Shown here in pieces: positions 897 through 26,549 of a stretch of 64,000 nt of DNA (position 1 is its first letter; the number at the start of each line of letters is the position of its first letter). The translations under genes and the position numbers were made by a program. This stretch comes from Bdellovibrio sp. GT3 (lineage in GTDB: Bacteria > Bdellovibrionota > Bdellovibrionia > Bdellovibrionales > Bdellovibrionaceae), in the NCBI RefSeq assembly GCF_037996765.1, contig NZ_JBBNAD010000004.1, positions 124,001 to 188,000 on the forward strand, written 5' to 3'. The notes under the pieces were generated by a model, which saw only the letters and a program-made list of their open reading frames with translations, was not told the DNA's origin and made no database searches.

Positions 897-1980
897 GATT
901 GCGACGTCAGAACTTAGGAAATTGTTTCTTGATAAGACACCATTGGTGGATGTCAGAGCTCCCGTGGAGTTTTCTGAAGGATCATTGCCCGGCGCCGTGA
1001 ACCTGCCGATTATGGATGATGTTCAACGGGCCGCCGTCGGTACCACATATAAACGGGAAGGTCGGGAAGCAGCATTAGCTTTGGGACATCAGTTGGTATC
1101 TGGCGAAGTAAAAGAATCCCGTCTTCAACGTTGGGCCGCCTTTATTCGTGAAAACCCGGATACCGTGTTGTTCTGCTTTCGCGGGGGTCTAAGATCAAGG
1201 ATTACGCAGACCTGGCTATCAGAAATGGGTGTCAATCGGCCTCTTATTGAAGGCGGTTACAAGGTCGCCCGGCAATTTCTTCGCGAGGCGGTGGACCAGA
1301 GCTCGCAAAAGCCTTTGTTAATTCTTTCTGGTCCTACTGGCAGCGCAAAAACAAAAGTTCTGAATCAGGCGAAAAGCTTTTATCCGTCGATTGATATGGA
1401 ATCATTGGCCCATCATCGTGGATCTGCGTTTGGCGCGACGGCCAGCCCGCAGCCCACACAGATTGATTTTGAAAATTCGCTAGCCGTTGATTTCTTAAGA
1501 CTGACATCCGTGGCATCAACCACCGGAATATTGCTTGAAGACGAAAGCCGTCTGATTGGTCGTTGTGCAGTTCCAGAGAATTTATTTAACCAGATGCGGG
1601 CGTCTGCTTTGGTCTATCTGGAAGAGCCGTTTGAACAACGGGTGGAGAACATATTCAATGACTATGTTGCTGGCACTGCCATTGGCAAGCGGGACGTGGA
1701 AGCTGCGCTAGGTGAATTTACAAAGTTTAAAAACGCTGTGAAGACAATATCCCGCAAACTGGGTGGACTTAGAGCCCAGGAAATACTGAATGATCTTGAG
1801 TTCTGTGAGCAAGACTATCTAAAACACCAAAAGTTGGATCAGAATCGTGTCTGGATTGAAAAACTCTTGCGATACTATTACGACCCGGCTTATTCGCAAA
1901 GCTTTGCCAAACGAAACCCTAAGGTATTAATGCGAGGACGAGGCGAAGCGGTCCTAAGCTACATCCAGAATCTTAAATAA
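889..1980 (+). CDS. selU: tRNA 2-selenouridine synthase (SelU/MnmH)
   Basis: Replaces sulfur by selenium at the wobble 2-thiouridine of Lys/Glu/Gln tRNAs using selenophosphate from SelD. The N-terminal rhodanese domain carries the catalytic Cys in FCFRGGLRSR; the C-terminal P-loop domain carries GPTGSAKT. I chose the TTG at 889, which overlaps the selD stop by 8 bases and gives 363 residues with the same N-terminal spacing as E. coli SelU (about 364). An ATG at 838 or TTG at 811 would add residues not expected in the family. The start is not proved by a strong ribosome site. A terminator follows immediately. Confidence 0.93.
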   Translation: MSRIATSELRKLFLDKTPLVDVRAPVEFSEGSLPGAVNLPIMDDVQRAAVGTTYKREGREAALALGHQLVSGEVKESRLQRWAAFIRENPDTVLFCFRGGLRSRITQTWLSEMGVNRPLIEGGYKVARQFLREAVDQSSQKPLLILSGPTGSAKTKVLNQAKSFYPSIDMESLAHHRGSAFGATASPQPTQIDFENSLAVDFLRLTSVASTTGILLEDESRLIGRCAVPENLFNQMRASALVYLEEPFEQRVENIFNDYVAGTAIGKRDVEAALGEFTKFKNAVKTISRKLGGLRAQEILNDLEFCEQDYLKHQKLDQNRVWIEKLLRYYYDPAYSQSFAKRNPKVLMRGRGEAVLSYIQNLK

Positions 1981-2016
1981 AAAACCCAGCTTCTTTCGAG
2001 AGCTGGGTTTTTGTTT
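1981..2016 (+). terminator. Rho-independent terminator after selU
   Basis: AACCCAGCT pairs with AGCTGGGTT around a short loop and is followed by a T-rich run. It begins directly at the selU stop and also lies downstream of the convergent lipoprotein gene. Confidence 0.85.
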
Positions 2017-2040
2017 TGTAGGCTTTTAACGGGGACTAAA

Positions 2041-3015
2041 CTAGCGAGATACGTTTGCGCACTTCGCTGGGTAGTTTTGACCCTTTTTGAAGTACATTTG
2101 ACCTTCGATGCCGCCTTTAGCGTTCATGAAGTCAGCAGTGTATTCGCCGTTCGTCAAAGTACCTTTGAATACTGTGGAGTATCCGTTGTTTTGCGCAGGA
2201 TACGTACCAGTCAGGCTCAAAGTCGCTGGAATGAAATCACTGCGGTAGATACCGGACAAGTCCGCTTTCAAGAAATCATTCTTGTCGTAGTTTCTTGTGA
2301 AAGAGCCCACCAATGTTGGGATTGTCGTGTTGTCAGCCGGGTTGCTACCCACTTTTTGTTCAAAGATGGAAAGTTTGATTTTCCCTTTGTAGCTTGGGAT
2401 GCGCTGAGAAACTTCTTTAGTTGAAATCACGCAACCATAGTAAGTTCCAGAAATCGCTGTGTACTGTTCGCGCAGGCGATTGTAGTACTGCTCATCAGAA
2501 CCGTTGCCTTCATTTGAAGATCCACCAATTGTGAACTTCAAAGAGATTTGGCCGATGATACCAGTGCGGGATTTAACCGTACCAGTGATGACACCGTTTT
2601 TGATAGTCCCGATGATGGATTGAACGTCATCGTTGGTGATTGCTTTGGTATTCAGAATGTTCAAAGTTCCAGTTTCTGGAACGTAGGCAACATCAAGATC
2701 AGTCAACGGAGCAGAAGCCGGGGATACACGAGTGTAAGCCGCTTTTTGCATGTGCTGGATTTTTGCAGAACCGTCAGTGTTTGTGCCGGTGTTGATGTTC
2801 AAAAGCAGCAAAGAAATCTGAACGATTTCTGTCGCGCCATTTTCACGGATCATATTGCCTTGGTAGGAACCTTCCACTTTACGGAAGTTTTCAGCTGCAC
2901 GAATATTGTCTTCGTTCAATTTCTTGTTGAAATTGTCAGAGCCGTTGTTGTCGTTGTTAAATGCGCAAGCAGCAAGTGTAAGTACGCTTAGTGCTACGAT
3001 AAGTTTTTTCAACAT
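2041..3015 (-). CDS. Hypothetical lipoprotein, last gene of the TolC operon
   Basis: A 324-residue protein with a lipoprotein signal peptide (hydrophobic stretch ending LTLAAC, acylated Cys near residue 17), followed by an Asn/Asp-rich linker. The rest looks like extracytoplasmic beta-strand sequence with repeated GSYQG/GTYYG-type strands. I do not recognise a family. It has a good ribosome site (AGGGGAA) and starts 12 bases after the TolC-like gene, so it is co-transcribed with the outer-membrane genes upstream. It may be an accessory envelope lipoprotein of the efflux system; this is inference from position only. Confidence 0.8.
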   Translation of the reverse strand: MLKKLIVALSVLTLAACAFNNDNNGSDNFNKKLNEDNIRAAENFRKVEGSYQGNMIRENGATEIVQISLLLLNINTGTNTDGSAKIQHMQKAAYTRVSPASAPLTDLDVAYVPETGTLNILNTKAITNDDVQSIIGTIKNGVITGTVKSRTGIIGQISLKFTIGGSSNEGNGSDEQYYNRLREQYTAISGTYYGCVISTKEVSQRIPSYKGKIKLSIFEQKVGSNPADNTTIPTLVGSFTRNYDKNDFLKADLSGIYRSDFIPATLSLTGTYPAQNNGYSTVFKGTLTNGEYTADFMNAKGGIEGQMYFKKGQNYPAKCANVSR

Positions 3016-3027
3016 AAATTCCCCTGC

Positions 3028-4506
3028 CTATTTTTTTTCTTCTGACGTTTTTTCGTCAGGAATAAGTTCGTCTCTAGATGCAGCCCATTGGTTCAGCGCG
3101 ATGTGGTAGCTTCCTACCGCCGTGATGTATTTGATTTGCGCAGTGAACTGGTTGTTAAGGGCCTGGATCAAGTTATTAATATCGGTTCTACCTTGAGAGT
3201 AGGAGCGGGTTAATTCGCTCACTGCTTTCTCACTGTAGTTTTTTTGCTTCTCAGCACTTTGCGCGATGGTGTACGCCGCTTGTGCCCGGCGCTCTGCCTG
3301 AATGTTCGTGTCGACAACTTCCATTTGTTGGCGTTGCAAACGCGTTTGTTGCAGGTCGCGGTTTAATTTGTTGTATACGATGCGCTCATTTTGGAAATCA
3401 GAGCCAAAGTTATACGCAAACTTCAAACCCACGTAGTAGTCCGGACGGGAGCCACCAGTAAGCTCCGAATAGGAATCTTCTGATTTTTCGCCCACACCCG
3501 TCGTGTACGCCTTACCGACAACATTCAAAGTTGGATAAGACAGGGATTTGGCCGCTGTCAGATTTTCTTCAGCCGCAGATACCAAAAGTTTTTGCGAGCG
3601 GATCTGGCGCAGATCTTCAGTGTTGATCGGTGGCAAGCTTGGAATCGGCGGCAATGCCATCGTCATTTCAAATTTAACTTCGGATTTTGGATCCAAAGCT
3701 AAAGAAGTCAAAAGATTTTCAACTGATGCAAGATACTCAGTGGAAGTCGATTTTACGATCTGCTCACGTGCCTCAAGTTCAGCCTGAGCCTGTGGCAAGT
3801 CCCCTGGATTGGAATAACCCAAAGAAGTTTTTCTGCGAACTGTGTCCGTCAATTTTTTATAACGATCACGGGCCGCCACGGCTTCCTTGAAGTTTTCCTG
3901 AGCGATATAAGATGACCAGAATTGGCTGATGGAAGAAAGCACCACCTCTTCCAGATCATTCGCACGAAGGATCTCGGAAGCTTTGTACGTCTCTTCAGCG
4001 CCATTCACGATACCACGATCCGCCACACCAAAGAAGTTACCCAGGATGGCTTGTTCAAGGATGATCCCTGCGCGATCCAAAGTCTGGTTCCCCGGAGGAA
4101 CATTCGATCCCAATGCCGTGTCGTAGCTTGCGCTTTGGGAAAGGCGGTTCAATTCAAGTGTTGCCGCAGTTCCAGTTGTGAACTTCTTCCCGAACTGCAA
4201 CAAGGTGTCGTAGCGTTCAATTTTATTGTGTGGATCCAGGGTTTGCGACGTCAGAAGCTGGGCTCTTTTGTCGAGCTCATAACCAGTGGACGCAGTCAAA
4301 AGCCAGTCGTAAGTGGAAAGAGTTTGGACCAATGGAAACTTTTGCTGTTGGTATTGTAGATTTACTTCTTTAGTGCGGTAACCTTGTTGCAAAGCCAGCT
4401 CAGCCACTTTCTTTTGAGAAAGAGTGATGACGTTTGCCGGCGCCACTGGCTGTTGAGCCATCGCCGTCGAGGTTGCGCAAAGAAGAAGGATGATTTTTTT
4501 TACCAT
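3028..4506 (-). CDS. TolC-family outer membrane efflux protein
   Basis: A 492-residue protein with an N-terminal signal peptide (ends near AMAQ) and the repeated amphipathic helical layout of TolC/OprM outer-membrane channels. It contains heptad-rich segments, DLPQAQAELEAREQ in the first half and a matching helical block in the second half, separated by strand segments such as YVGLKFAYNFG. It would form the trimeric exit duct of an efflux or type I secretion system. It overlaps the upstream beta-barrel gene by 7 bases. The divergent RND pump at 5462 is the obvious inner-membrane partner, although no adaptor gene lies between them. Confidence 0.85.
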   Translation of the reverse strand: MVKKIILLLCATSTAMAQQPVAPANVITLSQKKVAELALQQGYRTKEVNLQYQQQKFPLVQTLSTYDWLLTASTGYELDKRAQLLTSQTLDPHNKIERYDTLLQFGKKFTTGTAATLELNRLSQSASYDTALGSNVPPGNQTLDRAGIILEQAILGNFFGVADRGIVNGAEETYKASEILRANDLEEVVLSSISQFWSSYIAQENFKEAVAARDRYKKLTDTVRRKTSLGYSNPGDLPQAQAELEAREQIVKSTSTEYLASVENLLTSLALDPKSEVKFEMTMALPPIPSLPPINTEDLRQIRSQKLLVSAAEENLTAAKSLSYPTLNVVGKAYTTGVGEKSEDSYSELTGGSRPDYYVGLKFAYNFGSDFQNERIVYNKLNRDLQQTRLQRQQMEVVDTNIQAERRAQAAYTIAQSAEKQKNYSEKAVSELTRSYSQGRTDINNLIQALNNQFTAQIKYITAVGSYHIALNQWAASRDELIPDEKTSEEKK

Positions 4507-5261
4507 GATACTTTAGTTCCTAATTCAAAGTTGTCTTTTTGCAGAGCGATCTCAGTTTGGTCACGCAATTCTCTTTGAGACCATTCTGTGAAGACCGACC
4601 ATTTTTTCGTCAAGCGGAAGTCTAAACCGTAATTAAGGGCGTTGTAAGAGGCTTGTTTGGAAAACTTCGCAAAATCATTATTGGAAGATTGCGTGTAGTT
4701 TACCGTGCCGTACTGCGGTGCCACAGTGACTGCCAACCAAGCAAGTTTGGCATGACGTACGCTTAGAACCACTCCACCGGAAAGTAGAGATGTGTTCAAA
4801 CGAGCATCGTCAACAACCACACCCGATGGCATAACAGCTGAAACACTTTGAGTTGCCAGGGAGCCGTTGAAACGAAGGCCACCGCTGATTAAAATATTTT
4901 TCAAGTTCAATTCAGAACTCATCACTCCCAACATCAAACCTGGCATGAATGTCTGATCATTTTGCGAAAGATCAAAAGTTCCTGCAGAGTCCGTCGTTAC
5001 CGTGCCTTTTGACTGGAATTGTTGGCCAGTGAAACCAGCGATGTATTGCCAAGGGCGTGACACGATTTCAGGTTTTGGATCTTTTAGAACCATCATGCCT
5101 GTTTGAGCATCAGTTGCTGAAGCCGTGGCGATACCTTTAGCTTTAGTTTCGTTCAAAGCGGCGTCACGCAAAGAGATAGAAGTGGATTGAGCCCAGCTGA
5201 CTGCTGCAAAAGTGGATAGGGAAACGAACAGGAATACATTCGTCGCGCGAGAGAATTTCAT
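4500..5261 (-). CDS. Putative outer-membrane beta-barrel protein
   Basis: A 253-residue protein with a cleavable signal peptide (SLSTFAAVSWAQ), alternating hydrophobic strands and a C-terminal aromatic residue (ending KVSW), as expected of a beta-barrel inserted by the Bam machinery. The ATG at 5261 has GGAG just upstream and gives a clean signal peptide; an in-frame upstream start at 5291 would put ten extra residues in front. It is the first gene of the minus-strand operon with the TolC-like and lipoprotein genes, divergent from the RND transporter. Function unknown. Confidence 0.8.
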   Translation of the reverse strand: MKFSRATNVFLFVSLSTFAAVSWAQSTSISLRDAALNETKAKGIATASATDAQTGMMVLKDPKPEIVSRPWQYIAGFTGQQFQSKGTVTTDSAGTFDLSQNDQTFMPGLMLGVMSSELNLKNILISGGLRFNGSLATQSVSAVMPSGVVVDDARLNTSLLSGGVVLSVRHAKLAWLAVTVAPQYGTVNYTQSSNNDFAKFSKQASYNALNYGLDFRLTKKWSVFTEWSQRELRDQTEIALQKDNFELGTKVSW

Positions 5262-5321
5262 AGAGTCTCCGAGGTTTTGAAGTGCGGTCATAAATAGTCT
5301 TCCAGACGAGGCATGTCAATG

Positions 5322-5360
5322 ATTGATTAGTCGCCTAAGTATTGATTAGTTGTCCTTAGG
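5322..5360. promoter_or_regulatory. Imperfect tandem direct repeat between divergent efflux genes
   Basis: ATTGATTAGT occurs at 5322 and again at 5341, each followed by a similar CCTAAG/CCTTAGG tail, giving two units of about 19 bases. The position between two divergent transcription units fits a regulator-binding site, but no regulator gene is adjacent. Confidence 0.4.
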
Positions 5361-5420
5361 AATCAGAGACGAATACGGGTCGTGAATTCACATTTGTTCA
5401 TGGTTGCTGCGACCTTGATT

Positions 5421-5429
5421 TGTTACACT
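5421..5429 (+). promoter_or_regulatory. Extended -10 promoter for the RND pump gene
   Basis: TGTTACACT matches an extended -10 element (TGn then TACACT), about 32 bases upstream of the start codon. No well-spaced -35 was found. Confidence 0.35.
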
Positions 5430-5461
5430 AGTTTGGATGATTTAGGACCAGGGAGTGGTTT

Positions 5462-8400
5462 ATGAGAATTTCAGATATTTCCATCAAGAATCCAGTATTT
5501 GCATGGATGTTGATGTTTGGCTTGATGATCTTTGGATTGATCTCGTTTTCAAGGATGGGGCTTAGCCAACTGCCGGATGTGGATTTTCCTACGGTTTCAG
5601 TGAGTGTGACTTTGGATGGCGCGGCCCCCGAAGTTATGGAGACTCAGGTTGTAGATGTTATAGAAAGTGCACTGATGGGAGTCGAAGGGGTCCAAAGTAT
5701 CACCTCGAGTTCCAAGACCGGATCGGCAACTATTACAGTGGAATTCTCCCTGGATCGGAACATTGATCTTGCTTTGCAAGACGTGCAAGCGAAGGTTTCC
5801 GGTGCGCAAAGACAGCTGCCGGATGAAGTTGATCCTCCGACAATCTCCAAAACCAATCCGGATGATCAGCCGATTCTGTGGCTTGCGCTTACTTACGACA
5901 AAGGCGATCTGGAATTCTTAATGAAGTATGCCCGTGACTATCTGAAAGATCGTTTTACGACAGTGGATGGCGTGGGTGATATCTTTTTGGGTGGTTATAC
6001 AGATCCGGTTTTGCGCGTGTTCGTGAACACCAAAAAACTTCCTCAGTACAATATCTCAGTCAATGACGTGATCGATGCGATCAAGGCCGAGCACTCGGAA
6101 GAGCCGGGTGGATACATTGAAACTGAAAAAAGCAATTACAATGTGCGCACCATGGGTGAGGCAAAAACCATCAATGAGTTTGAAAACATCGTGATCAGCA
6201 AGCGCGCCGGTCGTCAGATGTCAGACTCCATTAACATGGTAAAAATCGGCCAGGTGGCCGATGTCAGCATGGGGCTTGATAAGATCACACGCATTTCGCG
6301 CTTTAATGGCGAAACAGCGTTGGGTCTGGGTATTCGTAAGCAGCGTGGTACCAATGCGGTGGCGGTTGCCAAGGCGGTGAAAGCCAAAGCTGAAGAGATT
6401 CAATCACAATTGCCTGAGGGCATGAAGATTCATGTGAACTTTGACAGCACTCAGTTCATTGAAAAATCTGTGGGCGAGCTGACTCATCACTTGGTGTTGG
6501 CAGTCATCCTGACCTCGTTGGTGTGCTGGGCCTTTCTGGGTTCGTGGTCTGCGACCTTCAACGTTTTACTCTCTATCCCGACATCACTGTTGGGGGCCTT
6601 CATTGGTTTGTACTTCCTGGGTTACACACTAAATACATTCACTCTTTTGGGTTTAACTCTGGCGATTGGTATCGTCGTCGATGACGCCATCATGGTTCTG
6701 GAAAATATATTCAGGTACAACGAAGACGGGCGGGGGCAGATTGAGTCTGCGATCTTAGGGGCTCGCGAGATCTCATTTGCCGCGATGGCGGCAACCGCTG
6801 CGGTTATTGCGATCTTCCTTCCGGTGGCCTTCATGAAAGGCATCATCGGAGCTTTCTTCATGCAATTCGGGGTGACGATTTCCATTGCGGTATTCCTGTC
6901 GTTGGTGGAGTCATTGACAATCACACCAATGCGTTGTGCGGGTTTTGTTCATCACGGTGAGCGCTCGACAAAAATCGGCAAGGCCTTTGAAACTTTCATG
7001 GAAACTATGAAGGTCGGCTACGAAAAATGGCTGCGCAAATCTTTGAACCTGCGTTGGACTGTGATCCTGGCTTCTTTGGTGTTTGTGGCGATTTCGTTTG
7101 TGTCCATCAAGTTCCTGGTGAAGGAAATGTCACCTGCGCAGGATCAAAGTATTTTCCTGGCGCGCATTGTGCTTCCGGTGGGAAGCTCTTTGGCCTATAC
7201 AAATGGTCAAGTGAAACAAGCTGAAGCCTGGTTGAAGACTCGCCCGGAAGTTAAGCAGGTCTTTGCAAGTATTGGTGGATTCGGGGGCGGTATCTCTGAC
7301 GCCAACACGGCGATGATGTTTATCACCATGAAGGATTACAAAGATCGTCCGAAGGACGAAAAAACCGGTAAGCGTTTAAGTCAGCAGCAATTCATGCAAG
7401 TGACCCGTGAAGCGTTCAGCAAAATTAAAGACGTGCGTCCGATTTTGATGGATATGTCTCAGCGTGGTTTCTCAAGTGGTCGTGGTTACCCGATCGAGTT
7501 CACTGTTATGGGCTCAGATTGGGAGAAGCTTGCAGGTTATTCGCAAAAAATCATGGAAGAGATGACGAAGACAGGCATGATGGTCGATGTGGATTCCAAC
7601 TACTTGTTGGGTATGCCAGAGATCCAGGTGAAACCGGATCGCCTGGCGGCAGCTCAGCACGGTGTCAGCGTGGCTTCCATCGGAACAACGGTCAGTGCTT
7701 TGATTGGTGGAGTGAAAGCCGGGGAGTATCCTGAAGGTGGACATCGCTACGATATCAAAGTTCAGCTGGATACCAAAAAAGAAGATGCGATGGTCGAGAT
7801 CAAAAGACTTTTGATCGGAAACACGAATGCCAACTTGATTCCAATTGATCGTGTGACCAAGCAGGAAACTACCAAGGCGTTGCAAAGTATCTCGCGCTCC
7901 AACCGTCAGCGTGCGATTTCCATCACGGCCAATTTAAAGCCGGGTGCTTCGCAACAAGAGGCCATGGAAAGAATCGAGAAAATTGCCAAGAGCACGTTAG
8001 AGCCGGGTTACATGATTGAGCAACAGGGTTCTTCAAAGACTTTCCAAGAGTCTTTCCAAAGTTTGATCTTTGCGTTGATCATGGGTTTGGTGATTGCCTA
8101 CATGGTTCTGGCTTCGCAGTTCAATTCATTTATTGATCCAGTGACGATCCTGATGGCGCTGCCGTTCAGTTTCTCGGGGGCATTTTTTGCGCTTCTGATC
8201 ACGGGTCAGTCTTTGAATATGTACTCGATGATCGGATTGTTGCTTTTGATGGGTATCGTGAAAAAGAACTCGATCCTGTTAATCGAATTCACCAACACCG
8301 TTCGTGACCGCGGAACATCCGAGGCAAATGCGGCTTTGATTGAAGCGTGTCCGATCCGTTTGCGTCCGATCCTGATGACATCCATTGCGACCATCGCTGC

Positions 8401-8611
8401 CGCGGTTCCATCAGCAACTGCGACCGGTGCTGGTTCCGAAACCATGCGTCCGATGGCTTTGTGTCTGATCGGGGGCGTACTTGTATCGACGATCTTAACG
8501 TTGTTCGTGGTTCCATGTGTGTATTCACTGATGGATCGCTTCAGAAAACGTGATGAGGTCCGCGAAAAAACCCGCCAAGCCTTCGCCGCCGTCGGCGACG
8601 AAGCTCTTTAG
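5462..8611 (+). CDS. RND-family (HAE1-type) multidrug efflux permease
   Basis: A 1049-residue inner-membrane proton/drug antiporter of the AcrB/MexB type, which forms a trimer and pumps substrates from the periplasm. The two-fold RND layout is clear: transmembrane helix 1 at residues 12-32, a large periplasmic loop, a helical bundle, a second loop and a second bundle. Key proton-relay residues are visible: the Asp pair in GIVVDDAIMV (TM4) and the Lys in GIVKKNSILL (TM10). The start has GGGAG upstream. The gene stands alone and diverges from the TolC operon. A periplasmic adaptor gene is not adjacent. Confidence 0.95.
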   Translation: MRISDISIKNPVFAWMLMFGLMIFGLISFSRMGLSQLPDVDFPTVSVSVTLDGAAPEVMETQVVDVIESALMGVEGVQSITSSSKTGSATITVEFSLDRNIDLALQDVQAKVSGAQRQLPDEVDPPTISKTNPDDQPILWLALTYDKGDLEFLMKYARDYLKDRFTTVDGVGDIFLGGYTDPVLRVFVNTKKLPQYNISVNDVIDAIKAEHSEEPGGYIETEKSNYNVRTMGEAKTINEFENIVISKRAGRQMSDSINMVKIGQVADVSMGLDKITRISRFNGETALGLGIRKQRGTNAVAVAKAVKAKAEEIQSQLPEGMKIHVNFDSTQFIEKSVGELTHHLVLAVILTSLVCWAFLGSWSATFNVLLSIPTSLLGAFIGLYFLGYTLNTFTLLGLTLAIGIVVDDAIMVLENIFRYNEDGRGQIESAILGAREISFAAMAATAAVIAIFLPVAFMKGIIGAFFMQFGVTISIAVFLSLVESLTITPMRCAGFVHHGERSTKIGKAFETFMETMKVGYEKWLRKSLNLRWTVILASLVFVAISFVSIKFLVKEMSPAQDQSIFLARIVLPVGSSLAYTNGQVKQAEAWLKTRPEVKQVFASIGGFGGGISDANTAMMFITMKDYKDRPKDEKTGKRLSQQQFMQVTREAFSKIKDVRPILMDMSQRGFSSGRGYPIEFTVMGSDWEKLAGYSQKIMEEMTKTGMMVDVDSNYLLGMPEIQVKPDRLAAAQHGVSVASIGTTVSALIGGVKAGEYPEGGHRYDIKVQLDTKKEDAMVEIKRLLIGNTNANLIPIDRVTKQETTKALQSISRSNRQRAISITANLKPGASQQEAMERIEKIAKSTLEPGYMIEQQGSSKTFQESFQSLIFALIMGLVIAYMVLASQFNSFIDPVTILMALPFSFSGAFFALLITGQSLNMYSMIGLLLLMGIVKKNSILLIEFTNTVRDRGTSEANAALIEACPIRLRPILMTSIATIAAAVPSATATGAGSETMRPMALCLIGGVLVSTILTLFVVPCVYSLMDRFRKRDEVREKTRQAFAAVGDEAL

Positions 8612-9160: not shown

Positions 9161-9194
9161 AAAAGGCATTGGTTATATCCAATGCCTTTTTTTT
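9161..9194. terminator. Bidirectional terminator
   Basis: AAAAGGCATTGG pairs with CCAATGCCTTTT around TATAT, with A-run and T-run on either side. It serves both the gene ending at 9129 and the minus-strand operon ending at 9193. Confidence 0.85.
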
Positions 9195-9978
9195 ATAGAT
9201 ACAGCTTACCCGGAGATAGCACCTCAGGAATACCCAAGTGAGTCATCATCGAGTTCCCAAACTTCGAAAATGACCCGCCTTCCAGTTGAAAGTGACGAAT
9301 AAGATCGACCATCCAATAGGGGATTTTCTTTTCGCACTTAAGTTCCAGAATGACATTGCAATCGGGCTGCTCAAACGAAGCCGGATGATCATAATGACTT
9401 AATAGCTGTTCATCGGGTTTCACACACCAGTCGTTCATCTCCTGATAGCGCAAATCCCGATCAAATGTGACACGGGCGTAGTCATCAACCACAGACAGGT
9501 AAGCTTTGCGCCGGTATTGGGTCAAAATCACCGGGGCTGTATTGTAGGTCATTTTGACTCTTAGAAACTCTTCCAGATTTGCGCGTGAACTTCCCTTTAC
9601 GTGCTCTGGTATAGTTCCCCATTCTAATATCTCGGCCCAGTTTTCCTCGTGGACCAAGGCGCGCTTCTTGCGCACGAATTCTTGCAGCTTGTATTTGATT
9701 TCAAAGAAATAGGGCGGTTTGGGATTGTCACCGTAAGAGCGAATCCGCATATTGAAATTAAATGCGTTCGCAGATTCTTTGAAGCGCAGTAAATACAAAG
9801 AGGGCGTATCCAGATAAAGACTGTTGATGGTGTAGTGCTTGTCCGGAGATACCGTCGAGTAATAGTCCATCTCACAATAGGCTTCCAGGAAACGGGAAAT
9901 CGGCTCTACCATCGAGGCGGGAATTAGGTACTTTAATTCATACCGCTCCAACGCCAGCGGGGAAACGGGGCCGCTCAC
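9193..9978 (-). CDS. VTC-domain polyphosphate polymerase-like protein
   Basis: A 261-residue soluble protein consisting of one VTC domain, the tunnel-shaped fold that in yeast Vtc4 makes polyphosphate from ATP and belongs to the triphosphate-tunnel metalloenzymes. Seen here: ERYELKYLIP (residues 11-20), SLYLDT (53-58), the paired-Arg strand MRIRSYG (77-83), FEIKYK (92-97), KKR (104-106), a late strand VILELKCEKK and SFSKFGNS. These supply the basic residues and the C-terminal Glu/Lys expected of an active enzyme. There is no SPX domain. The GTG start overlaps the upstream stop as GTGA. Last gene of the five-gene operon; in many bacteria VTC proteins sit beside DUF4956 proteins, as here. Product length and whether the product is exported are unknown. 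Confidence 0.88.
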   Translation of the reverse strand: MSGPVSPLALERYELKYLIPASMVEPISRFLEAYCEMDYYSTVSPDKHYTINSLYLDTPSLYLLRFKESANAFNFNMRIRSYGDNPKPPYFFEIKYKLQEFVRKKRALVHEENWAEILEWGTIPEHVKGSSRANLEEFLRVKMTYNTAPVILTQYRRKAYLSVVDDYARVTFDRDLRYQEMNDWCVKPDEQLLSHYDHPASFEQPDCNVILELKCEKKIPYWMVDLIRHFQLEGGSFSKFGNSMMTHLGIPEVLSPGKLYL

Positions 9979-11135
9979 AGTTTAACCACTTTCAGGGATT
10001 TGCTAAGGTGATTTTTTTCTGGCTCCGCAGCCAGTCGTTCGCTTTCAAGCAGGTAGTCGACAAACAACGTCAGGATCTCCTGCTGCTGACTTAACAGATC
10101 CAATTCACCTTGCTCCTGCATTAACTTGTTTTCCAGCACAGATAAGGTGTCAGCACCCTTTACCTTGCCGCTTTCTTTCAAGCCGGCACTGGACATCTTG
10201 TAAAGCCCGGCTAAATTCAAAATTTGGTTCTTCAAATTCAGCAAACGGTCCTTACTGTCATCCACTTCTTTTTGCTTCAAGGCTTTTTTTAGAATCAGTT
10301 CATTCTGCTTTTGTCGGGAGAGGTCGTCGGACCCAAGATGCGGCAACTGCACGGTCACCTCAAACTTGTATCCGATCTCGTCCTCTTTGCGAGTTTGGGA
10401 AATATCCATTCCCTTGATCCACTGGTCCTCACGACCCCGCAGAATTTCAAGCTCGCGGCTGTAGTCGTTAAATTCGGTTTGCGAGATTCTTGCTGACAGG
10501 GAAGTTTCGGGTAGGGGAATGCTGCCGACCGAGTCCACCACTTCTTGCACACTGAGCAAATCAAAACCAGTCAAAGATTCATCCGACCAGGAGGGCACCC
10601 AGGATTTAATTTTTTTCGTGGCCACTTTGTTTTCCTGGGTAATAACGTTTTCAAGGCGTTTTAGCTTGTAGATGTCACCCTGTGCGCCCAAAAAAGATTT
10701 TGTGGAGGCACGGCCTGCACGCAGCGAAAGACTTTGCGCCTTTAGATATCCCTCTGACAGTTTGAGCGAGTTTTCCAGGACGGCCATTTTTTTATGACTG
10801 ATTTCATAGGAAACCAAATTCAGATAGCGTTCGTGCAAAGCCCAGGCAAGTGAAGCGTCTTTCAAAACTTTTCGACCGGCTTCTGGAGTGGAACCCAATT
10901 TCCATTCGGGCCAGGAGCGGAACTGAAACTTTACTCCCAGTTCGTACTCGTTCTTTTTGTCTTCGGTTTCAACACTGGCAAAACCCTCTACATTGCGCAG
11001 GGGATTGCGAGTGTCGGTGGTGCGCATTTCCTCCTGGGAAACAAAGGCCGAGTCGGACCAGGCGGTTTTCAATACCTGCTCGGGAGTCACGGCAAATGAA
11101 GAAATTCCCCCTAGAAGGAGCCAGCTTAGAAACAT
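9975..11135 (-). CDS. TolC-like outer-membrane channel/coiled-coil protein
   Basis: A 386-residue protein with a signal peptide (LLLGGISSFA) and a mostly helical body with long heptad-like stretches (residues about 110-190 and 290-375) and short strand segments such as YELGVKFQFRSW and YKFEVTVQLPHLG. This resembles the outer-membrane efflux protein fold but is shorter than TolC (about 470), so strand or helical pieces are reduced. The ATG at 11135 overlaps the preceding TGA and has AAGGA upstream. Lying between an HlyD-type protein and the VTC enzyme, it is a candidate exit duct or periplasmic scaffold of the same machine. Confidence 0.7.
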   Translation of the reverse strand: MFLSWLLLGGISSFAVTPEQVLKTAWSDSAFVSQEEMRTTDTRNPLRNVEGFASVETEDKKNEYELGVKFQFRSWPEWKLGSTPEAGRKVLKDASLAWALHERYLNLVSYEISHKKMAVLENSLKLSEGYLKAQSLSLRAGRASTKSFLGAQGDIYKLKRLENVITQENKVATKKIKSWVPSWSDESLTGFDLLSVQEVVDSVGSIPLPETSLSARISQTEFNDYSRELEILRGREDQWIKGMDISQTRKEDEIGYKFEVTVQLPHLGSDDLSRQKQNELILKKALKQKEVDDSKDRLLNLKNQILNLAGLYKMSSAGLKESGKVKGADTLSVLENKLMQEQGELDLLSQQQEILTLFVDYLLESERLAAEPEKNHLSKSLKVVKL

Positions 11136-12886
11136 CAAGGAGTTCCTTTTTCTGCACCCATGCTGACAACGGCATAGGGGCTGGAGCCTTTGCTATCAAA
11201 AACTGCAAATATCTGATGTGTTTCAGGATGAATAGCCAAGCCCTCCAGATGAGGCACTTGGAACTCATGAAGCAACTCGGTCTGAGTAGTGCGCGCATTC
11301 AACTTCCAGATGGCGCTGCAAGATGATTTCCGGCAACTGGAAGCCACGTAAAACGAATCCCCTTGTTTGATCAGATCGGTCAAAACCGATTCAACATCCT
11401 GATGGGGGAGCTTCATTTGAAAACGGGCGGCAAGGGTGACTTGCGCAGGCTTCAATGTTCCCGAAAAGACCGAGGCAAAGTCAGTAACCTTCAGAATCAT
11501 CCCTTCGTTGCGCTGAAGCACAGGTCCTTTCAGTGCCAGGTACAGGACATTCTTGTCTATGGTGTGTCCTTCGATTTCAAAACCCTCTTTGCCCGCCTGC
11601 AGATCCGCCTCATAGATGGATTTTAGGACTGGATCTTGAGAGTCGCGAAGTACCTGTAACAGAGGCGTGCGCAGATCCACATGATGTTCAATCTTGTAGC
11701 TGAGTCCGTGGCGCTTGATCTGTGCAAAAATGTGTCGTTCGTCTTTTAGCTTTCCTTTTTTTGTCTTCGACAGGGAGCTGAGCAAATACAAGTTGTCCCC
11801 TTCTGTGGACACGGACTCGATGTCGGCCATTGTGGGCATTCCCGGCAGCTGAATTTGATGCGGCTGAAGCTGACCTTGTTCATTCATCAAGAACAAGACC
11901 GGATGGTCCTCCGGATAGTCGTCAGAAATGAGCGCAAACTGTTTCAGTTCAGGGATAAAAACAATTCCCGACATCTCGGGCTTGAATGTTTCAACGATAT
12001 TCAACGGAATATCCATTTCACGTGGATCCTGTTGATTCAGATCTGAATTTGATAGGGCCTCGTCCGCGTAGGCACGGCTTAGCAATGACAGGCTCCATTT
12101 CTTCTGCACAAAAACTTTTTCTCCCAGAAGAAATTCATTATTGCGGGGGATCTTGATGACGACTTCGCGTCCCCAGGCAGCCAAGGTCTGAATCCGTAAC
12201 AGGCGCTCAGGAATCTGCACAATGCGTGAACCGATGCTAACCACAGAACCACGCGTGACCTTGCCTCCAGCGGAATTCACTTCGACCACTTGACCCACTT
12301 TCAGGGTCGAGGAAAGGTTTTCATTGATATATCCATTTACATAGGTGGGATTTAGGGGAACCAAAGTTATCAGCGGAGCAAAAGCAGGTGCTTTTTCGCC
12401 GTTTTTGAAATTCACGGCACCTACGGCGCCATCGACTTCGGCAAAGACGAAAAGATTTTTCATGCGACCTTCAATCAAAGCCATTTCTTTGCGTGCATCC
12501 TCGAGGTCCACCAATAAGGGGTCGGCCTGTGGAGCTAAATGACCCAGGTCCTTAACGACGCCGGCTAATTGCTGGCGCAGGTGCATTTCGGCGTTGAGTT
12601 TGTCATAGCGACTTTTTAGCACCCGCAACTGGGATTCCCACTCAGACTGACCCAATTCAGCAAGTAAATCGCCTTTGCGCACGATCTGACTGGGCAAAAC
12701 ATAGATGTGCTTGATTTCAACGGGACTGTCAAAATTGACTTGGAACTCACGGGATTCGGCGACTCCTAGAATACTCACAGGGTCCGATCCCAGAATGAAG
12801 CCTAAAATCAAAACCAGAAAAACGGCAGCACTCCAGCAGCCCAATAAGAATCGGTTCTCGGTTCCGACGACCTCAGAAAATTTCAC
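11135..12886 (-). CDS. HlyD-type membrane-fusion domain fused to a beta-propeller-like domain
   Basis: A 583-residue protein anchored by one transmembrane helix (residues about 14-34). Residues 40-270 read as an HlyD/MFP adaptor: a lipoyl-like half-motif (IYVLPSQIVRKGDLL), a coiled-coil hairpin (ESQLRVLKSRYDKL...), the second lipoyl half (FAEVDGAVGAVNFKNGE) and a beta-barrel segment (INENLSSTLKVGQVVEV). Residues about 300-580 are repeated beta-strand units resembling esterase-like/DUF3616 or SdiA-regulated propellers: SGIVFIPELKQFALISDD, ADIESVSTEGDNLYLLSS, EGFEIEGHTID, EGLAIHPETHQIFAVFD. I do not know a standard family with this fusion. GTG start with GAGGTG upstream, directly after the DUF4956 stop. 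Confidence 0.75.
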   Translation of the reverse strand: MKFSEVVGTENRFLLGCWSAAVFLVLILGFILGSDPVSILGVAESREFQVNFDSPVEIKHIYVLPSQIVRKGDLLAELGQSEWESQLRVLKSRYDKLNAEMHLRQQLAGVVKDLGHLAPQADPLLVDLEDARKEMALIEGRMKNLFVFAEVDGAVGAVNFKNGEKAPAFAPLITLVPLNPTYVNGYINENLSSTLKVGQVVEVNSAGGKVTRGSVVSIGSRIVQIPERLLRIQTLAAWGREVVIKIPRNNEFLLGEKVFVQKKWSLSLLSRAYADEALSNSDLNQQDPREMDIPLNIVETFKPEMSGIVFIPELKQFALISDDYPEDHPVLFLMNEQGQLQPHQIQLPGMPTMADIESVSTEGDNLYLLSSLSKTKKGKLKDERHIFAQIKRHGLSYKIEHHVDLRTPLLQVLRDSQDPVLKSIYEADLQAGKEGFEIEGHTIDKNVLYLALKGPVLQRNEGMILKVTDFASVFSGTLKPAQVTLAARFQMKLPHQDVESVLTDLIKQGDSFYVASSCRKSSCSAIWKLNARTTQTELLHEFQVPHLEGLAIHPETHQIFAVFDSKGSSPYAVVSMGAEKGTP

Positions 12887-12887
12887 T

Positions 12888-13571
12888 TTACACCTCGATC
12901 ACGGATTCTTGATTCATAAAATTCAAACCGCGCACTGAAGTAATGCGTCCCAGTTCTTCCACCAAATCCGCAGAAGTCTGACAGGGTTTTAAGCGTACTT
13001 GATAGGAATAATCCAGACGTTCTCCCTGACCCATTTCGCGGATCGTGGCCAATGCAAAATGTCGGCAGGATTTTTCAAGAACCCCTTCCACCTCACGCTG
13101 ATCTGATCCTGATCGCGACAAATTCAAACGCAGCAAACCATCAAACTGAGGTCCCGCAGCGAAGGGGGACTTTTGCAAAACTGTCAGAGCCAGAATAAAG
13201 CAGATCGTTCCCAGGATAGCGATGCCATAGGCGTGAACTCCGGAGGACAAACCCACCGCGAGCGAGGCAAAAATAAAGAACATATCACGGGGGTCTTTGA
13301 CATTGGTGCGAAAGCGCAACAAAGACAAAGCCCCGATCATACCAATACCTCGGGCCACATTATCACCAATCGCCTGCATGGCGATGGCAATCACAATCGG
13401 TAGCAGCACAAGGCCATGCAGAAAGTTCAGTGAATAGGAAAGCCCACGGAAGGTTTTCACATAAGCGACCGCCAAGGCCGTGCCCAGAATAAAGCTTAGC
13501 AGGAAGGCATAGATGATCGAAATCCACGTCGGGTTGGCAAAGGATGAATTAAGAACGGAAAAGTCCAACAT
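12888..13571 (-). CDS. DUF4956 integral membrane protein
   Basis: A 227-residue inner-membrane protein with about four transmembrane helices in the first 130 residues (SIIYAFLLSFILGTALAV, GLVLLPIVIAIAM, MFFIFASLAVGLSSGV, AILGTICFILALTVL). The conserved DUF4956 core GIGMIGALSLLRFRTNVKDPRD is recognisable (shown here only in part), followed by a soluble C-terminal domain. Members are repeatedly found next to VTC-domain polymerases and kinase-like CotH proteins. The ATG at 13571 follows the previous stop by one base, implying translational coupling; an upstream GTG at 13589 is possible. Likely the membrane platform for the VTC enzyme (inference). Confidence 0.85.
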   Translation of the reverse strand: MLDFSVLNSSFANPTWISIIYAFLLSFILGTALAVAYVKTFRGLSYSLNFLHGLVLLPIVIAIAMQAIGDNVARGIGMIGALSLLRFRTNVKDPRDMFFIFASLAVGLSSGVHAYGIAILGTICFILALTVLQKSPFAAGPQFDGLLRLNLSRSGSDQREVEGVLEKSCRHFALATIREMGQGERLDYSYQVRLKPCQTSADLVEELGRITSVRGLNFMNQESVIEV

Positions 13572-13572
13572 A

Positions 13573-15219
13573 CTAGAATTGACCCTCACACACGCCCGGT
13601 GTTGTTGTTAGCACGGGATTCGGATAGGCCGAGAAATAGTCCGCCATGTCCAAATCCAGAAACAGAGTTCCAGTTTTGCAACCACGATAGAGGGCACGGT
13701 AAAGACTTAGCAGGTTGTGTTTAAAGACTTTGTATTCACCCGAAGTAAACTGCAAAGTCGACATAAAATAGTCCTGCATAGCTGCCTGACTTTCTGCTGT
13801 GCCAAACACCTGTCCATAAAGCGCGATCACACCCTTGTAAGTACGGGGAGCGAAATGTCGCAACACCATGGTGGAATTCAAGTATAGATCTGCATTGTCC
13901 TTCCAGGTGTCATAGGTGGCAGACGTTTTTTTGACATCAGCGATCAAGTGATATTTTCTTGCAACGTTCAGATCAAAGCCACCATCGTTGTCTTTTAGAA
14001 GCATGACTTTCATGGAAACTCCGGTTTGCTTGATGGCATTCAGTTTTTCCACTTCCTCCGGTGTCAACGTGTTGGCAGGTTTCGCCAGAAGTTCTTTATA
14101 CTTTTTCTCGGACATATCATCCAAGGTGCCTTGTGCCGTTTTAAAGAACTGGCGACGTTTGAATGCTACATTACCGATACGATCAGACTGATTCATCAGG
14201 AAGTCCAAAACCAGCATGTTGGAGGTATCCTGCATGCCTTGCAGCTTTTGTCCTGATTTTGCCAAGTCTCTATTGCCCAGGATTTGTGTGATCGGACGAG
14301 CATCTTTCACCAATGGCCAGTAGACGCTGCTGTTACGGAACTGATCGATGCGGGTTTTGTACTGTTTTAATCCCGAAACTTCGCCGTAAGATTCTTCATT
14401 GCCAGGATTTTCCGCCAAAACACCAAAGACCTGTTGCTTGCCCTGGGTCAGGATCAGATTATTCCAATGCTCCGAAGAACTGTCCAAAAATCCGCGGCGC
14501 TTTCCAACACTGTAAAAGGATGGAGGCACAAGACTTAAGCCATGAGGTGGCTTGGTGTAGACGTCAGGGAGTTGGGATACGTTTCCATGTTTTGCGCGAA
14601 CCAGATGGCCAATCTGATAATGCCAGTAGCGATTGATGATGGTTTTGCCCATTTGCAAACTGAGGTAGCGACCGGCCAACGCCTGATCCAGAACCGTGTC
14701 TATATCAACCGTGCGCAGAACAACCGGCGGAATGTCGACCGCCTTAAAAAGCTGATTCAGACGGGAATAACCCAAAATACTACCCACGGAAACACCCGGA
14801 GATGCAAATTTGAATTTGGCCTCTTTATCCGGATATCCCGCGCGGGCTTTTAATTTCTTTTTATCAGGGCGGTTTAGAGTGCAGACGGTTTTTTGGAACT
14901 GCGCCTCACTCATGCCTTTTGGAATTTTAAAATATTCGATGGCGACCGAGGTGCTATTCACCTTAGGGCAGGCATAGAAGTTTTGATTTTTCGGGTGATC
15001 ACTGCTGGTGGCATAAAGATTCAGGCCGCAAAGTCCGTCTTCGTCCTTATCGATCTTTGGTTCAAGTCCCGGAAGTCTTTGCAGCAGATAACATTTTTCC
15101 GGAAGAGCCTTACCTGAAACTTCCAAGTTGTACGTTCTTACAGCGCGACTGTCGTAAGGATCCAGATAGCTGTGAGCGTAGTTACCAAAAAGCGCAATTG
15201 AAATGAATGCAGCAAGCAT
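13573..15219 (-). CDS. Secreted kinase-like protein (FAM20/PI4K-type motifs)
   Basis: A 548-residue protein with an N-terminal signal peptide (about residues 1-17), so probably periplasmic or surface-located. It shows a spaced set of motifs like those of FAM20/PI3-PI4-kinase-like folds: a Lys-containing strand AKFKFASPG (134-142, candidate ATP-binding Lys), LVLDFLMNQSDRIGN (336-350, candidate catalytic Asp346 and metal-binding Asn350) and VMLLKDNDGGF (405-415, candidate metal Asp). Several Cys residues suggest disulfides. It occupies the slot taken by CotH kinases in other VTC/DUF4956 clusters. First gene of the five-gene operon; GGAGG lies 7-8 bases before the ATG. The kinase assignment is motif-based and could be wrong. 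Confidence 0.6.
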   Translation of the reverse strand: MLAAFISIALFGNYAHSYLDPYDSRAVRTYNLEVSGKALPEKCYLLQRLPGLEPKIDKDEDGLCGLNLYATSSDHPKNQNFYACPKVNSTSVAIEYFKIPKGMSEAQFQKTVCTLNRPDKKKLKARAGYPDKEAKFKFASPGVSVGSILGYSRLNQLFKAVDIPPVVLRTVDIDTVLDQALAGRYLSLQMGKTIINRYWHYQIGHLVRAKHGNVSQLPDVYTKPPHGLSLVPPSFYSVGKRRGFLDSSSEHWNNLILTQGKQQVFGVLAENPGNEESYGEVSGLKQYKTRIDQFRNSSVYWPLVKDARPITQILGNRDLAKSGQKLQGMQDTSNMLVLDFLMNQSDRIGNVAFKRRQFFKTAQGTLDDMSEKKYKELLAKPANTLTPEEVEKLNAIKQTGVSMKVMLLKDNDGGFDLNVARKYHLIADVKKTSATYDTWKDNADLYLNSTMVLRHFAPRTYKGVIALYGQVFGTAESQAAMQDYFMSTLQFTSGEYKVFKHNLLSLYRALYRGCKTGTLFLDLDMADYFSAYPNPVLTTTPGVCEGQF

Positions 15220-23804: not shown

Positions 23805-23884
23805 GTCGTTGTTCCTTGAGGTAGGCATTGCCAAGAATAAGTCTTTATTGTGAAATATACATCCAGGGAGTCAAGGAGGATTCT

Positions 23885-26044
23885 TTGAACACACCAAAGG
23901 CAGGAACGCCTAAAAGAACGTCTAAGAAAAAAGCTGCCACACGTAAGGTCAAGGTCATCGAGCATCCCTTGTCATCTGAAAGTCTTTTCACCAGCCGCGA
24001 AATTGGTTGGTTGAATTTCAATCGCCGTGTTTTGACAGAAGCAGAGGATGCAAGCAATCCGCTTTTGGAAAGAGTGAAGTTCCTAAGTATCTCGGGATCC
24101 AATCTGGATGAGTTCTTCATGAAACGCGTGGGCGGACTGAAACGACACGTGGCTTATGGCGTATCGCCGAAATCAGCTGATGGAAAAACCCCGATGGCGC
24201 AATTGCTGGAGATTCGCCAAGTCGTCTTGCCGATGCTGCAGGATCAGGGCAACTGTCATAAAAAACTTTTGAAAGCCTTGGAGAAAGAACACATTCATCT
24301 TCTTGCGTGGAAAGACCTGACTGAAAAAGAGCAGGAGCACGTAAAGAAGTACTACAGCAAGAATGTGTTTCCGGTGTTAACGCCGCTCTCGGTGGACCCG
24401 GGGCATCCGTTTCCGTTTATTTCGAATTTGTCGGTTTCCTTGGGACTGACTTTAAAGCATCCAAATTCAGAGGATAAACTTTTTGCGCGGGTTAAGATTC
24501 CAAAAGTTTTACCGCAATGGATTCGCGTCGATGCTGATACCAGCGTAAATCGTTTTGTAAGTCTGCTTGAAGTGATCAAAGCCAACTTGGCTGATTTGTT
24601 CCCATCCATGCAAGTGTTGGAGTCGATGGCATTTCGCCTGACTCGTAACGCGGATTCAGATCAGGATCAAGAAGACGCCGAAGACTTGTTGGAAGCGATC
24701 GAAGAGGAATTGCGTCAGCGTCGTTTTGCCGAAGTGGTGCGCTTGGAGCATGGGCCCAAGCCTGATCCGTGGATGTTAAAGTTCCTGATGGAGGAGCTTG
24801 AACTGACCGAAGAGGATATCTACGAAATTCCAGGAGAGCTGGATTACGGCGACTTGGGAATGATTTCAGATCTACCGTTGCCAAAGCTGAAATTTGAACC
24901 GTACATTCCCGTGGTTTCGCCGGCATTTGCAGAGGAAGGCACCGGGATTTTCAATGCGATTCGCGCCAACGATCAGTTGATTCATAATCCGTTTGAAAGT
25001 TTCTCGGCCTCAGTTGAAACTTTCATTCGCATTGCCAGCGAAGATCCCAAAGTTCTAGCGATTAAAATGACGTTGTATCGCACGGGTGACAACAGTCCGT
25101 TCATTCGGTCCTTGATTCGCGCGGCGGCTCAAGGCAAGCAAGTGGTGTGTCTGGTTGAACTCAAAGCCCGCTTTGACGAAGAAAGAAATATCTATTGGGC
25201 CAATGAGTTGGAAAATGCCGGCGTTCACGTCGTGTATGGTGTCGTGGGTTTGAAAACTCATGCTAAAACAGCCCTGGTCGTCCGTCAGGAGCAAGAGGGC
25301 TTGCGCTGTTACGTTCATATCGGAACTGGGAACTATAACGTCACGACTTCCAGATTTTATACGGATTTGGGACTTCTGACTGCCAGAGAGGAAATCACCA
25401 ATGACGTGGTGGACTTCTTCCACTATCTGACGGGAATCAGTTTGAAGGGGAGTTACAATCACCTGCTGATTGCTCCGGTGAATATGTTCTCGACTTTCCG
25501 GACCATGATTGATCGCGAAGCCGCCCATGCGAAGGCCGGGAAGCCCGCTCATATAGTGGCTAAGTTCAATAATTTTGAGGAGAATGATATCGGTGCGGCA
25601 CTTTACTCTGCCTCACAAAAAGGTGTCGACATCGAGATGATCGTGCGGGGCTTCTGCTGTCTTCGTCCCGGGGTTCCGGGGATGAGTGAAAATATCAAAG
25701 TCACATCCGTGATCGGCAGATTCCTGGAGCACTCGCGATTGTTCTATTTCCGCAACGGCCAGGAAAATCCGGTGGATGGCGACTTCTTCCTGGGTTCTGC
25801 TGATTGGATGTACCGCAATCTTCATGCGCGCGTGGAGGCGATTGTTCCCGTTTTGGATCGCAGTCTGAAAGAAAAATTATGGGAGATCCTTCAGTTTTAC
25901 CTTAAAGAATCCCGTCAGGCGTGGTCTATGAACTCCGATGGCAGCTATACCAAAAAAACCTTCAAATCTGATGACGTCGGAATTCATCAAACGCTGATGC
26001 AATTGGCGAAATCCCGGGTTAAGATGGTCGAAGATTCGGAGTAA
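23885..26044 (+). CDS. ppk1: Polyphosphate kinase 1 (PPK1)
   Basis: Reversibly makes polyphosphate from the gamma phosphate of ATP. A 719-residue protein with the four PPK1 domains: the N domain starts at SREIGWLNFNRRVL, and two phospholipase-D-like C domains follow. The first includes KTHAKTALVV with the autophosphorylated His and YVHIGTGNYN; the second includes FLEHSRLFYF and SADWMYRNLHARVE. The basic N-terminal tail (PKRTSKKKAATRK) is extra. The TTG at 23885 has a strong AAGGAGGA site 5 bases upstream; no in-frame ATG exists nearby. sixA follows after one base, so the two are coupled. Confidence 0.96.
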   Translation: MNTPKAGTPKRTSKKKAATRKVKVIEHPLSSESLFTSREIGWLNFNRRVLTEAEDASNPLLERVKFLSISGSNLDEFFMKRVGGLKRHVAYGVSPKSADGKTPMAQLLEIRQVVLPMLQDQGNCHKKLLKALEKEHIHLLAWKDLTEKEQEHVKKYYSKNVFPVLTPLSVDPGHPFPFISNLSVSLGLTLKHPNSEDKLFARVKIPKVLPQWIRVDADTSVNRFVSLLEVIKANLADLFPSMQVLESMAFRLTRNADSDQDQEDAEDLLEAIEEELRQRRFAEVVRLEHGPKPDPWMLKFLMEELELTEEDIYEIPGELDYGDLGMISDLPLPKLKFEPYIPVVSPAFAEEGTGIFNAIRANDQLIHNPFESFSASVETFIRIASEDPKVLAIKMTLYRTGDNSPFIRSLIRAAAQGKQVVCLVELKARFDEERNIYWANELENAGVHVVYGVVGLKTHAKTALVVRQEQEGLRCYVHIGTGNYNVTTSRFYTDLGLLTAREEITNDVVDFFHYLTGISLKGSYNHLLIAPVNMFSTFRTMIDREAAHAKAGKPAHIVAKFNNFEENDIGAALYSASQKGVDIEMIVRGFCCLRPGVPGMSENIKVTSVIGRFLEHSRLFYFRNGQENPVDGDFFLGSADWMYRNLHARVEAIVPVLDRSLKEKLWEILQFYLKESRQAWSMNSDGSYTKKTFKSDDVGIHQTLMQLAKSRVKMVEDSE

Positions 26045-26045
26045 A

Positions 26046-26549
26046 ATGGAAATTATCATCGTCCGTCATGCATTAGCTGAAGAACGCGAAGACTTTGCCA
26101 AAAAAGGACTGGAGGATCAGTTTCGTCCTTTGACCCTGAAGGGCCGTAAGCGCATGCAAAAAGTTTGTCTGCGTATGAAGGATTTCGTGAAAGACGTGGA
26201 CGTGATTGTGACCAGTCCCTTTACCCGGGCCGCGCAAACCGCGCAGATTCTGACGCAAAGCTATCCGGGTGTGAAAACCATCGAGGTTCCCGAGATGGTT
26301 CCGCAAAGTCCGCCGCAAGCTCTGTTAAAATGGATTCGTACCCAGGGCAGGAACTATAAGCGCATTTTGATTGTGGGGCATGAGCCGCACCTAAGCACAT
26401 TTGCGAGTTACATGCTGACCGGTAAGGCTGAAAGTTTCATTGATCTGCGCAAAAGTGGAATTCTTTCCCTCGAACTGGAATCTTTTGCGCAGGCTGAAGC
26501 CGGCGGGGCAGAGTTGATGTATTCAATCCCGCCCAAAATCTTTGATTAA
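26046..26549 (+). CDS. sixA: SixA-type phosphohistidine phosphatase
   Basis: A 167-residue histidine-phosphatase-superfamily protein with the catalytic RHA motif (IIIVRHALAE, His8), the TSPFTRAAQTA block and the second His in IVGHEPHLS. SixA removes phosphate from phosphohistidine on phosphotransfer proteins. It lies one base after ppk1, whose mechanism uses a phosphohistidine, and converges on ppx with a 4-base overlap. A direct action on PPK1 is speculation; a role within the phosphate regulon is likely from context. Confidence 0.85.
   Translation: MEIIIVRHALAEEREDFAKKGLEDQFRPLTLKGRKRMQKVCLRMKDFVKDVDVIVTSPFTRAAQTAQILTQSYPGVKTIEVPEMVPQSPPQALLKWIRTQGRNYKRILIVGHEPHLSTFASYMLTGKAESFIDLRKSGILSLELESFAQAEAGGAELMYSIPPKIFD

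Follow-up and report, generated by a model that had tools for sequence, protein, structure and literature searches.

The window analysed here is a 64,000-nucleotide stretch of Bdellovibrio sp. GT3 (contig NZ_JBBNAD010000004.1, positions 124,001 to 188,000), and the system in question is an operon of five genes on its minus strand that encode, in order of transcription, a kinase-like protein, a DUF4956 membrane protein, an HlyD-family adaptor with a probable C-terminal β-propeller, a TolC-like outer membrane factor (OMF) and a predicted VTC polyphosphate polymerase (Table 1). The operon is real: a sequence-only reading of this DNA had described the five genes as joined stop-to-start by overlaps of 1–4 bases and gaps of 1 base, and the junctions proved exact on the minus strand. 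An upstream GTG at 13589 is an alternative start for DUF4956, for which most congeners use the ATG start that gives 227 residues, and the stop of the HlyD gene overlaps the OMF start by 1 base if the latter is ATG 11135 and by 4 bases if it is TTG 11138. The coupling is far from chance, because the order of the last four genes (DUF4956-HlyD-OMF-VTC) was found in 28 other loci, with the same short overlaps within the genus.

Table 1. Genes and features of the operon and its surroundings in the window.
Feature	Position	Strand	Remarks
Kinase-like gene	15219-13573	-	1-base gap between its stop and the DUF4956 ATG at 13571
DUF4956 gene	13571-12888	-	Stop at 12888, 1-base gap, HlyD GTG at 12886
HlyD/propeller gene	12886-11135	-	Stop TGA 11137-11135
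TolC-like OMF gene	11138-9975	-	Stop overlaps VTC GTG at 9978 by 4 bases
VTC gene	9978-9193	-	Last gene of the operon; 261-residue product
Intrinsic-terminator-like hairpin	9161-9190	+	12-pair stem, T runs; 3′ end of the operon
Calcineurin-like phosphoesterase gene	16433-15297	-	77 bases upstream of the kinase-like gene
PPK1 polyphosphate kinase gene	23828-26044	+	
Phosphohistidine-phosphatase-like (histidine-phosphatase, SixA-like) gene	26046-26549	+	
Ppx/GppA gene	26546-27457	-	
RND-like pump gene	5462-8611	+	Just outside the operon
OEP-family OMF gene	3082-3606	-	Just outside the operon

The last gene clearly encodes a predicted polyphosphate polymerase with its catalytic residues kept. The protein is cytoplasmic, lacks a transmembrane (TM) or SPX domain, and matches PF09359 in Pfam with an E-value of 1e-50 (173 bits, cut-off 23), while the profile of its family aligns to the structure of yeast Vtc4 (3g3q) with an E-value of 8.5e-8. 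Residues R78, R80 and E212 are the counterparts of R264, R266 and E426 of Vtc4—the three residues mutated to inactivate yeast VTC (PMC9911596)—and are invariant in 19 homologues.

The TolC-like protein has a likely signal peptide, has no match in Pfam (E up to 1) or NCBIfam and is not among the Pfam OEP matches of its own genome. The AlphaFold2 (AF2) monomer model (pLDDT 85.5) has two β-hairpins between long helices, which is the topology of an OMF, and its secondary structure contains the two helix-strand-strand-helix repeats of the TolC fold. With this model Foldseek retrieved 42 matches with E-values no higher than 0.001, among them TolC, OprM and CusC, and the match to Klebsiella TolC had an E-value of 2.3e-11 and a probability of 1.0. 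A profile of 63 homologues was also compared in hhalign with the OEP-family OMFs of the same genome and gave an E-value of 1.9e-8, against 0.028 and 0.44 for the negative controls. Modelling and profile comparison thus confirm a divergent TolC-type OMF that Pfam misses.

The adaptor consists of one N-terminal TM helix, an HlyD or membrane fusion protein (MFP) part at about residues 40–280 and a further domain in its last 290 residues. Pfam HlyD_3 is above the cut-off and HlyD_D23 is also matched; TIGR01730 in NCBIfam reaches an E-value of 3e-12, yet stays under the family cut-off. The profile of the protein matches the structures of MacA (4dk1, E-value 1e-6) and EmrA, and the HlyD_3 and MacA matches give the barrel-sandwich and β-barrel domains behind an N-terminal anchor. 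The last 290 residues match DUF3616 above the cut-off, with weak WD40 and phytase-like profile matches, and are probably a β-propeller. Stand-alone homologues of this domain (L135–L139; 305–321 residues, mostly with signal-peptide-like N-termini) occur in genomes both with and without the cassette.

The DUF4956 protein matches PF16316 with an E-value of 7e-13 (49.2 bits, cut-off 30.6) and has a secondary match to MgtC (E-value 9e-5), a regulatory protein family. It is a polytopic, MgtC-like inner-membrane protein with a soluble C-terminal domain and a conserved basic segment, RFRxNxKDPRDMFF. HlyD-type adaptors and OMFs normally depend on a partner in the inner membrane. No RND, ABC or MFS pump gene is present in the window operon, the flanking genes of homologous loci being only partly annotated, and DUF4956 is nearly always the first gene; DUF4956 is therefore probably this partner within a tripartite assembly, where it would replace the usual pump. 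The classes that had been assigned to the four proteins from the letters alone stand: VTC and DUF4956 by their family matches, the former also by its alignment to Vtc4 and its invariant residues, HlyD by profile comparison (the propeller part only probably), and the TolC-like protein by both structure and profile comparison. The sequence-only reading had counted a failure of the HlyD and TolC-like calls in structure comparison as a refutation, and neither call failed.

The genes accompanying VTC were compared across the 141 genomes of the order that were searched for VTC, and HlyD-family genes were sought in 369 genomes of the phylum. The sequence-only reading had named beforehand the loss of these neighbours in relatives as the finding that would tell against it; they are kept, the cassette being present in 20 of the 22 VTC-bearing genomes of the same family, as far as contigs allow. 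The 28 loci that share the window's order belong to several Bdellovibrionota families, and overlaps of 1–4 bases are the rule for the cassette within the genus. Judged from this co-inheritance, DUF4956-HlyD-OMF-VTC is one coupled cassette in Bdellovibrionota. The remaining conduit loci of the phylum are cut by contig ends, with three exceptions: L047 has no DUF4956 directly upstream, L122 is taken up below, and in L068 (genome G118) a 357-residue open reading frame (4498–5568) joins part of HlyD/propeller to the C-terminal half of VTC and the OMF is gone. This last locus is possibly a decayed cassette, as if by one deletion, or an assembly fault.

Other VTC loci of the order have no conduit; DUF4956 is near VTC in most of these and CotH in several. 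Two VTC loci within the same family (L060 and L061, in genomes G060 and G061) lack HlyD and OMF and have the order of a gene for about 750 residues, DUF4956, a protein of 220–240 residues and VTC. By eye, the product of the first of these genes resembles an RND/MMPL-type transporter, and VTC may be wired to another kind of transporter there. In a maximum-likelihood tree built from 67 DUF4956 sequences, all conduit-linked proteins fell together (fork support 88/98), separate from those linked to VTC and CotH. The two exceptions in labelling come from contigs cut off ahead of the OMF, and several VTC/CotH-linked sequences sit on very long branches, which makes their placement uncertain. VTC/DUF4956 loci are thus split into distinct lineages that annotation should keep separate.

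A scan of named genomes for the HlyD family also recovered Bacteroidota (Saprospiraceae, Cyclobacteriaceae, Bacteroidales), in which DUF4956 lies directly upstream and an OMF directly downstream of HlyD in 23 of 25 loci. The adaptors of these loci are without the propeller domain seen in Bdellovibrionota. On this gene order the indivisible core is DUF4956-HlyD-OMF, smaller than the four-gene cassette. CotH is found near the conduit in five of 20 Bacteroidota loci, where 0.45 would be expected from its genome-wide density (153 matches per about 101 Mb; P about 7e-5). The same scan returned a group of matches (L083–L109) that were set aside as ordinary-looking MFPs, most of them beside a gene for about 1000 residues, and not the cassette system.

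The kinase-like gene is, by the comparison of neighbourhoods, a variable accessory outside the conserved cassette. Its protein carries the motif D..NQ.DR.GN and later KDND, conserved in 13 homologues, which we take to resemble the segments for catalysis and metal binding in secreted kinases of the Fam20/CotH type. This conserved motif is what is left of the kinase call in the sequence-only reading, which gained no family, fold or profile support: neither the protein nor the 13 family members matched Pfam, PDB profiles gave no match, CotH (PF08757) was not matched (hhalign to CotH, E-value 0.19), and the AF2 model (pLDDT 44) was too poor for meaningful fold matches. In another taxonomic family, a secreted protein of 800–1300 residues is encoded in this neighbourhood; hhalign gave no profile relation between the kinase-like protein and such large secreted proteins, and this route to a kinase identity beyond the motif failed like the others. 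In 12 congeners, a homologue of the kinase-like protein (28–30% identity) is encoded downstream and on the other strand, often with the phosphoesterase, and the gene is single copy in the window genome. The neighbouring HlyD shares 83–84% identity with its counterparts in the nearest relatives, and we therefore regard the kinase-like gene as a probable replacement and not a vertically inherited orthologue. The calcineurin-like phosphoesterase (PF00149, E-value 1e-20; lipobox-like N-terminus) is a possible accessory, with homologues close to VTC or kinase-like genes in 10 congener loci.

Secreted proteins of other kinds are encoded beside VTC elsewhere. The gene directly 3′ of VTC in L050 (4243–5292, minus strand) encodes a secreted 350-residue protein with a Fam20-like motif (DLLCGQWDRWSGGN ... 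ARDNGG) and no Pfam match; in L043, from another family of the order, this place (1472–2587, minus strand) is held by a secreted DUF2252 protein, which also matches APH phosphotransferase weakly. A secreted protein of 556–590 residues adjoins VTC in L057 and L058 and looks, by eye from the sequence, like an arylsulfotransferase-type propeller.

From the class and order of these genes we infer that DUF4956, the HlyD/propeller protein, the OMF and VTC would form a single envelope-spanning machine with synthesis-coupled export of polyphosphate, a tentative reading to which we give slightly less than an even chance. DUF4956 would occupy the inner-membrane place of an ABC, RND or MFS pump; HlyD would serve as adaptor in the periplasm, and the TolC-like protein as the exit across the outer membrane. 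In Bdellovibrionota, the soluble VTC would dock on the cytoplasmic face of this conduit and polymerise the γ-phosphate of ATP into polyphosphate, and the growing chain would pass through a DUF4956 channel and the rest of the conduit until it reached the periplasm, surface or medium, export being powered by synthesis itself; the phosphoesterase and the kinase-like protein, which is secreted, may be accessories that use or trim the product. In yeast VTC, synthesis is coupled to translocation, and nascent polyphosphate is drawn into a basic TM channel (PMC9911596). It is by analogy with this coupling that we propose VTC to feed polyphosphate into DUF4956, the adaptor and the OMF, and the conserved basic motif of DUF4956, set beside the basic channel of yeast, lends support to such a path. 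The genome has its own PPK1, so VTC should be dispensable for ordinary cytoplasmic polyphosphate, and the presence of PPK1 with the SixA-like and Ppx/GppA genes, which adjoin one another 14–18 kb from VTC, makes a second, export-dedicated polymerase plausible. The single machine of the sequence-only reading had comprised all five genes; it is well supported for four of them by their order in the 28 other loci, but the kinase-like gene falls outside it.

Several observations weigh against polyphosphate export, above all the relatives without VTC. VTC is adjacent in none of the 25 Bacteroidota conduit loci; it lies elsewhere in 12 of 33 conduit-bearing Bacteroidota genomes and was undetected in 21, an absence that is weak evidence per genome, as completeness is unreported and several are metagenome-assembled genomes (MAGs). 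Among the Bdellovibrionota, L122 has a conduit without adjacent VTC. The whole-protein net charges of the OMF (-3) and HlyD (-10) of the window give no sign of a polyanion path. With a core that lacks VTC, the conduit must have a VTC-independent purpose in Bacteroidota, and these VTC-free conduits, together with the net charges, are why our confidence in polyphosphate export stays somewhat below even. The export of polyphosphate or a phosphorylated polymer, as suggested by the sequence-only reading, may apply in Bdellovibrionota, while the Bacteroidota core speaks against it as the general function. Either polyphosphate is a cargo specific to Bdellovibrionota, or Bacteroidota conduits carry PPK-made polyphosphate or another anion, or VTC is a modulator. 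The VTC-free loci favour a reading of the core as a general tripartite system that exports or imports another, probably anionic, solute or polymer, in which the Bdellovibrionota VTC would be an added regulator or would supply polyphosphate only as a local cofactor for energy or metal buffering. The enrichment of CotH near the core, where it is not obligatory, fits this as well, but many of the Bacteroidota genomes concerned are probably incomplete MAGs, and a place after the OMF in 28 Bdellovibrionota loci, with start/stop overlap in the genus, would be unusual for a mere modulator; we consider such a general exporter rather unlikely.

Genes for CotH or for secreted kinase-like proteins are found repeatedly around conduit and VTC loci, and CotH, VTC and DUF4956 are a recurrent set in Gram-positive pel loci too (PMC7112168), as would suit a machine that supplies a phosphate donor (polyphosphate or nucleotide) to extracytoplasmic kinases (CotH, kinase-like) modifying envelope proteins or polymers. 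This is improbable, given that the window protein is only a putative kinase and that several conduit loci have no recognised kinase nearby. The resemblance of DUF4956 to MgtC, and a propeller that is an added domain in Bdellovibrionota and absent from Bacteroidota adaptors, could instead point to DUF4956-HlyD-OMF as an envelope-spanning scaffold or sensor whose propeller binds a ligand or the cell wall and signals to VTC; the OMF model, however, has the full TolC topology, which forms a duct in all solved relatives, and makes this a highly improbable role. That VTC and the conduit are separate in other taxa would agree with mere partners of convenience, VTC making an intracellular store and the conduit performing unrelated efflux, but the genes stay coupled in the same order in several families of the phylum, and this, with the possible joint decay in L068 and the PPK1 already present, makes such a reading barely credible.

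The proposed synthesis-coupled export machine shares with the eukaryotic VTC complex (Vtc1/Vtc3/Vtc4), the producer of polyphosphate in yeast vacuoles, the same TTM/VTC catalytic domain family and residues. Synthesis on the cytoplasmic side is coupled to a membrane channel in that complex (PMC9911596), a coupling that we propose for Bdellovibrio. The window VTC differs in having neither SPX nor Vtc1-type TM domains, and its proposed channel would be the unrelated DUF4956, from which the path would run on via an adaptor and a duct in the outer membrane. CotH-VTC-DUF4956 modules beside pel in streptococci, clostridia and bifidobacteria (PMC7112168) likewise have VTC and DUF4956 side by side with a secreted kinase near, here only kinase-like. 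These modules are without HlyD or OMF, the window protein is not recognisably CotH, and the DUF4956 of the Bdellovibrionota CotH-VTC-DUF4956 modules branches elsewhere in the tree. An HlyD/MFP adaptor and a TolC-fold OMF are common to AcrAB-TolC, MacAB-TolC and HlyBD-TolC, whereas the Bdellovibrio operon has DUF4956 in place of an RND, ABC or MFS pump and includes a polymerase. In synthase-dependent secretion (cellulose, Pel, alginate), a polymerase in the cytoplasm pushes its product across both membranes by way of dedicated parts in each, which is the logic proposed here; unlike those systems, the Bdellovibrio cassette has no glycosyltransferase, the polymer would be inorganic phosphate, and the OMF is not a β-barrel/TPR exporter.

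The locus bears on the role of the DUF4956 family and on how bacteria place polyphosphate outside the cytoplasm. We found no description of DUF4956 with HlyD/TolC, or of VTC in Bdellovibrio, in open-access papers, which is weak evidence of absence. Because the DUF4956-HlyD-OMF core is stable, DUF4956 can be tested for a role as the inner-membrane component of a tripartite assembly, and the constant attachment of VTC in a predator yields a specific prediction of extracellular or periplasmic polyphosphate. A new tripartite class with a DUF4956 inner-membrane part in Bdellovibrionota and Bacteroidota, combined with synthesis-driven polyphosphate secretion in the former, is a proposal that we consider less likely than not; if true, this would be the first dedicated route known to us for polyphosphate across a double membrane.

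The hairpin at the 3′ end of the operon is symmetric and could, from its sequence, serve the minus-strand operon too. The RND-like pump and the OEP-family OMF encoded beyond it look like ordinary efflux genes outside the cassette.

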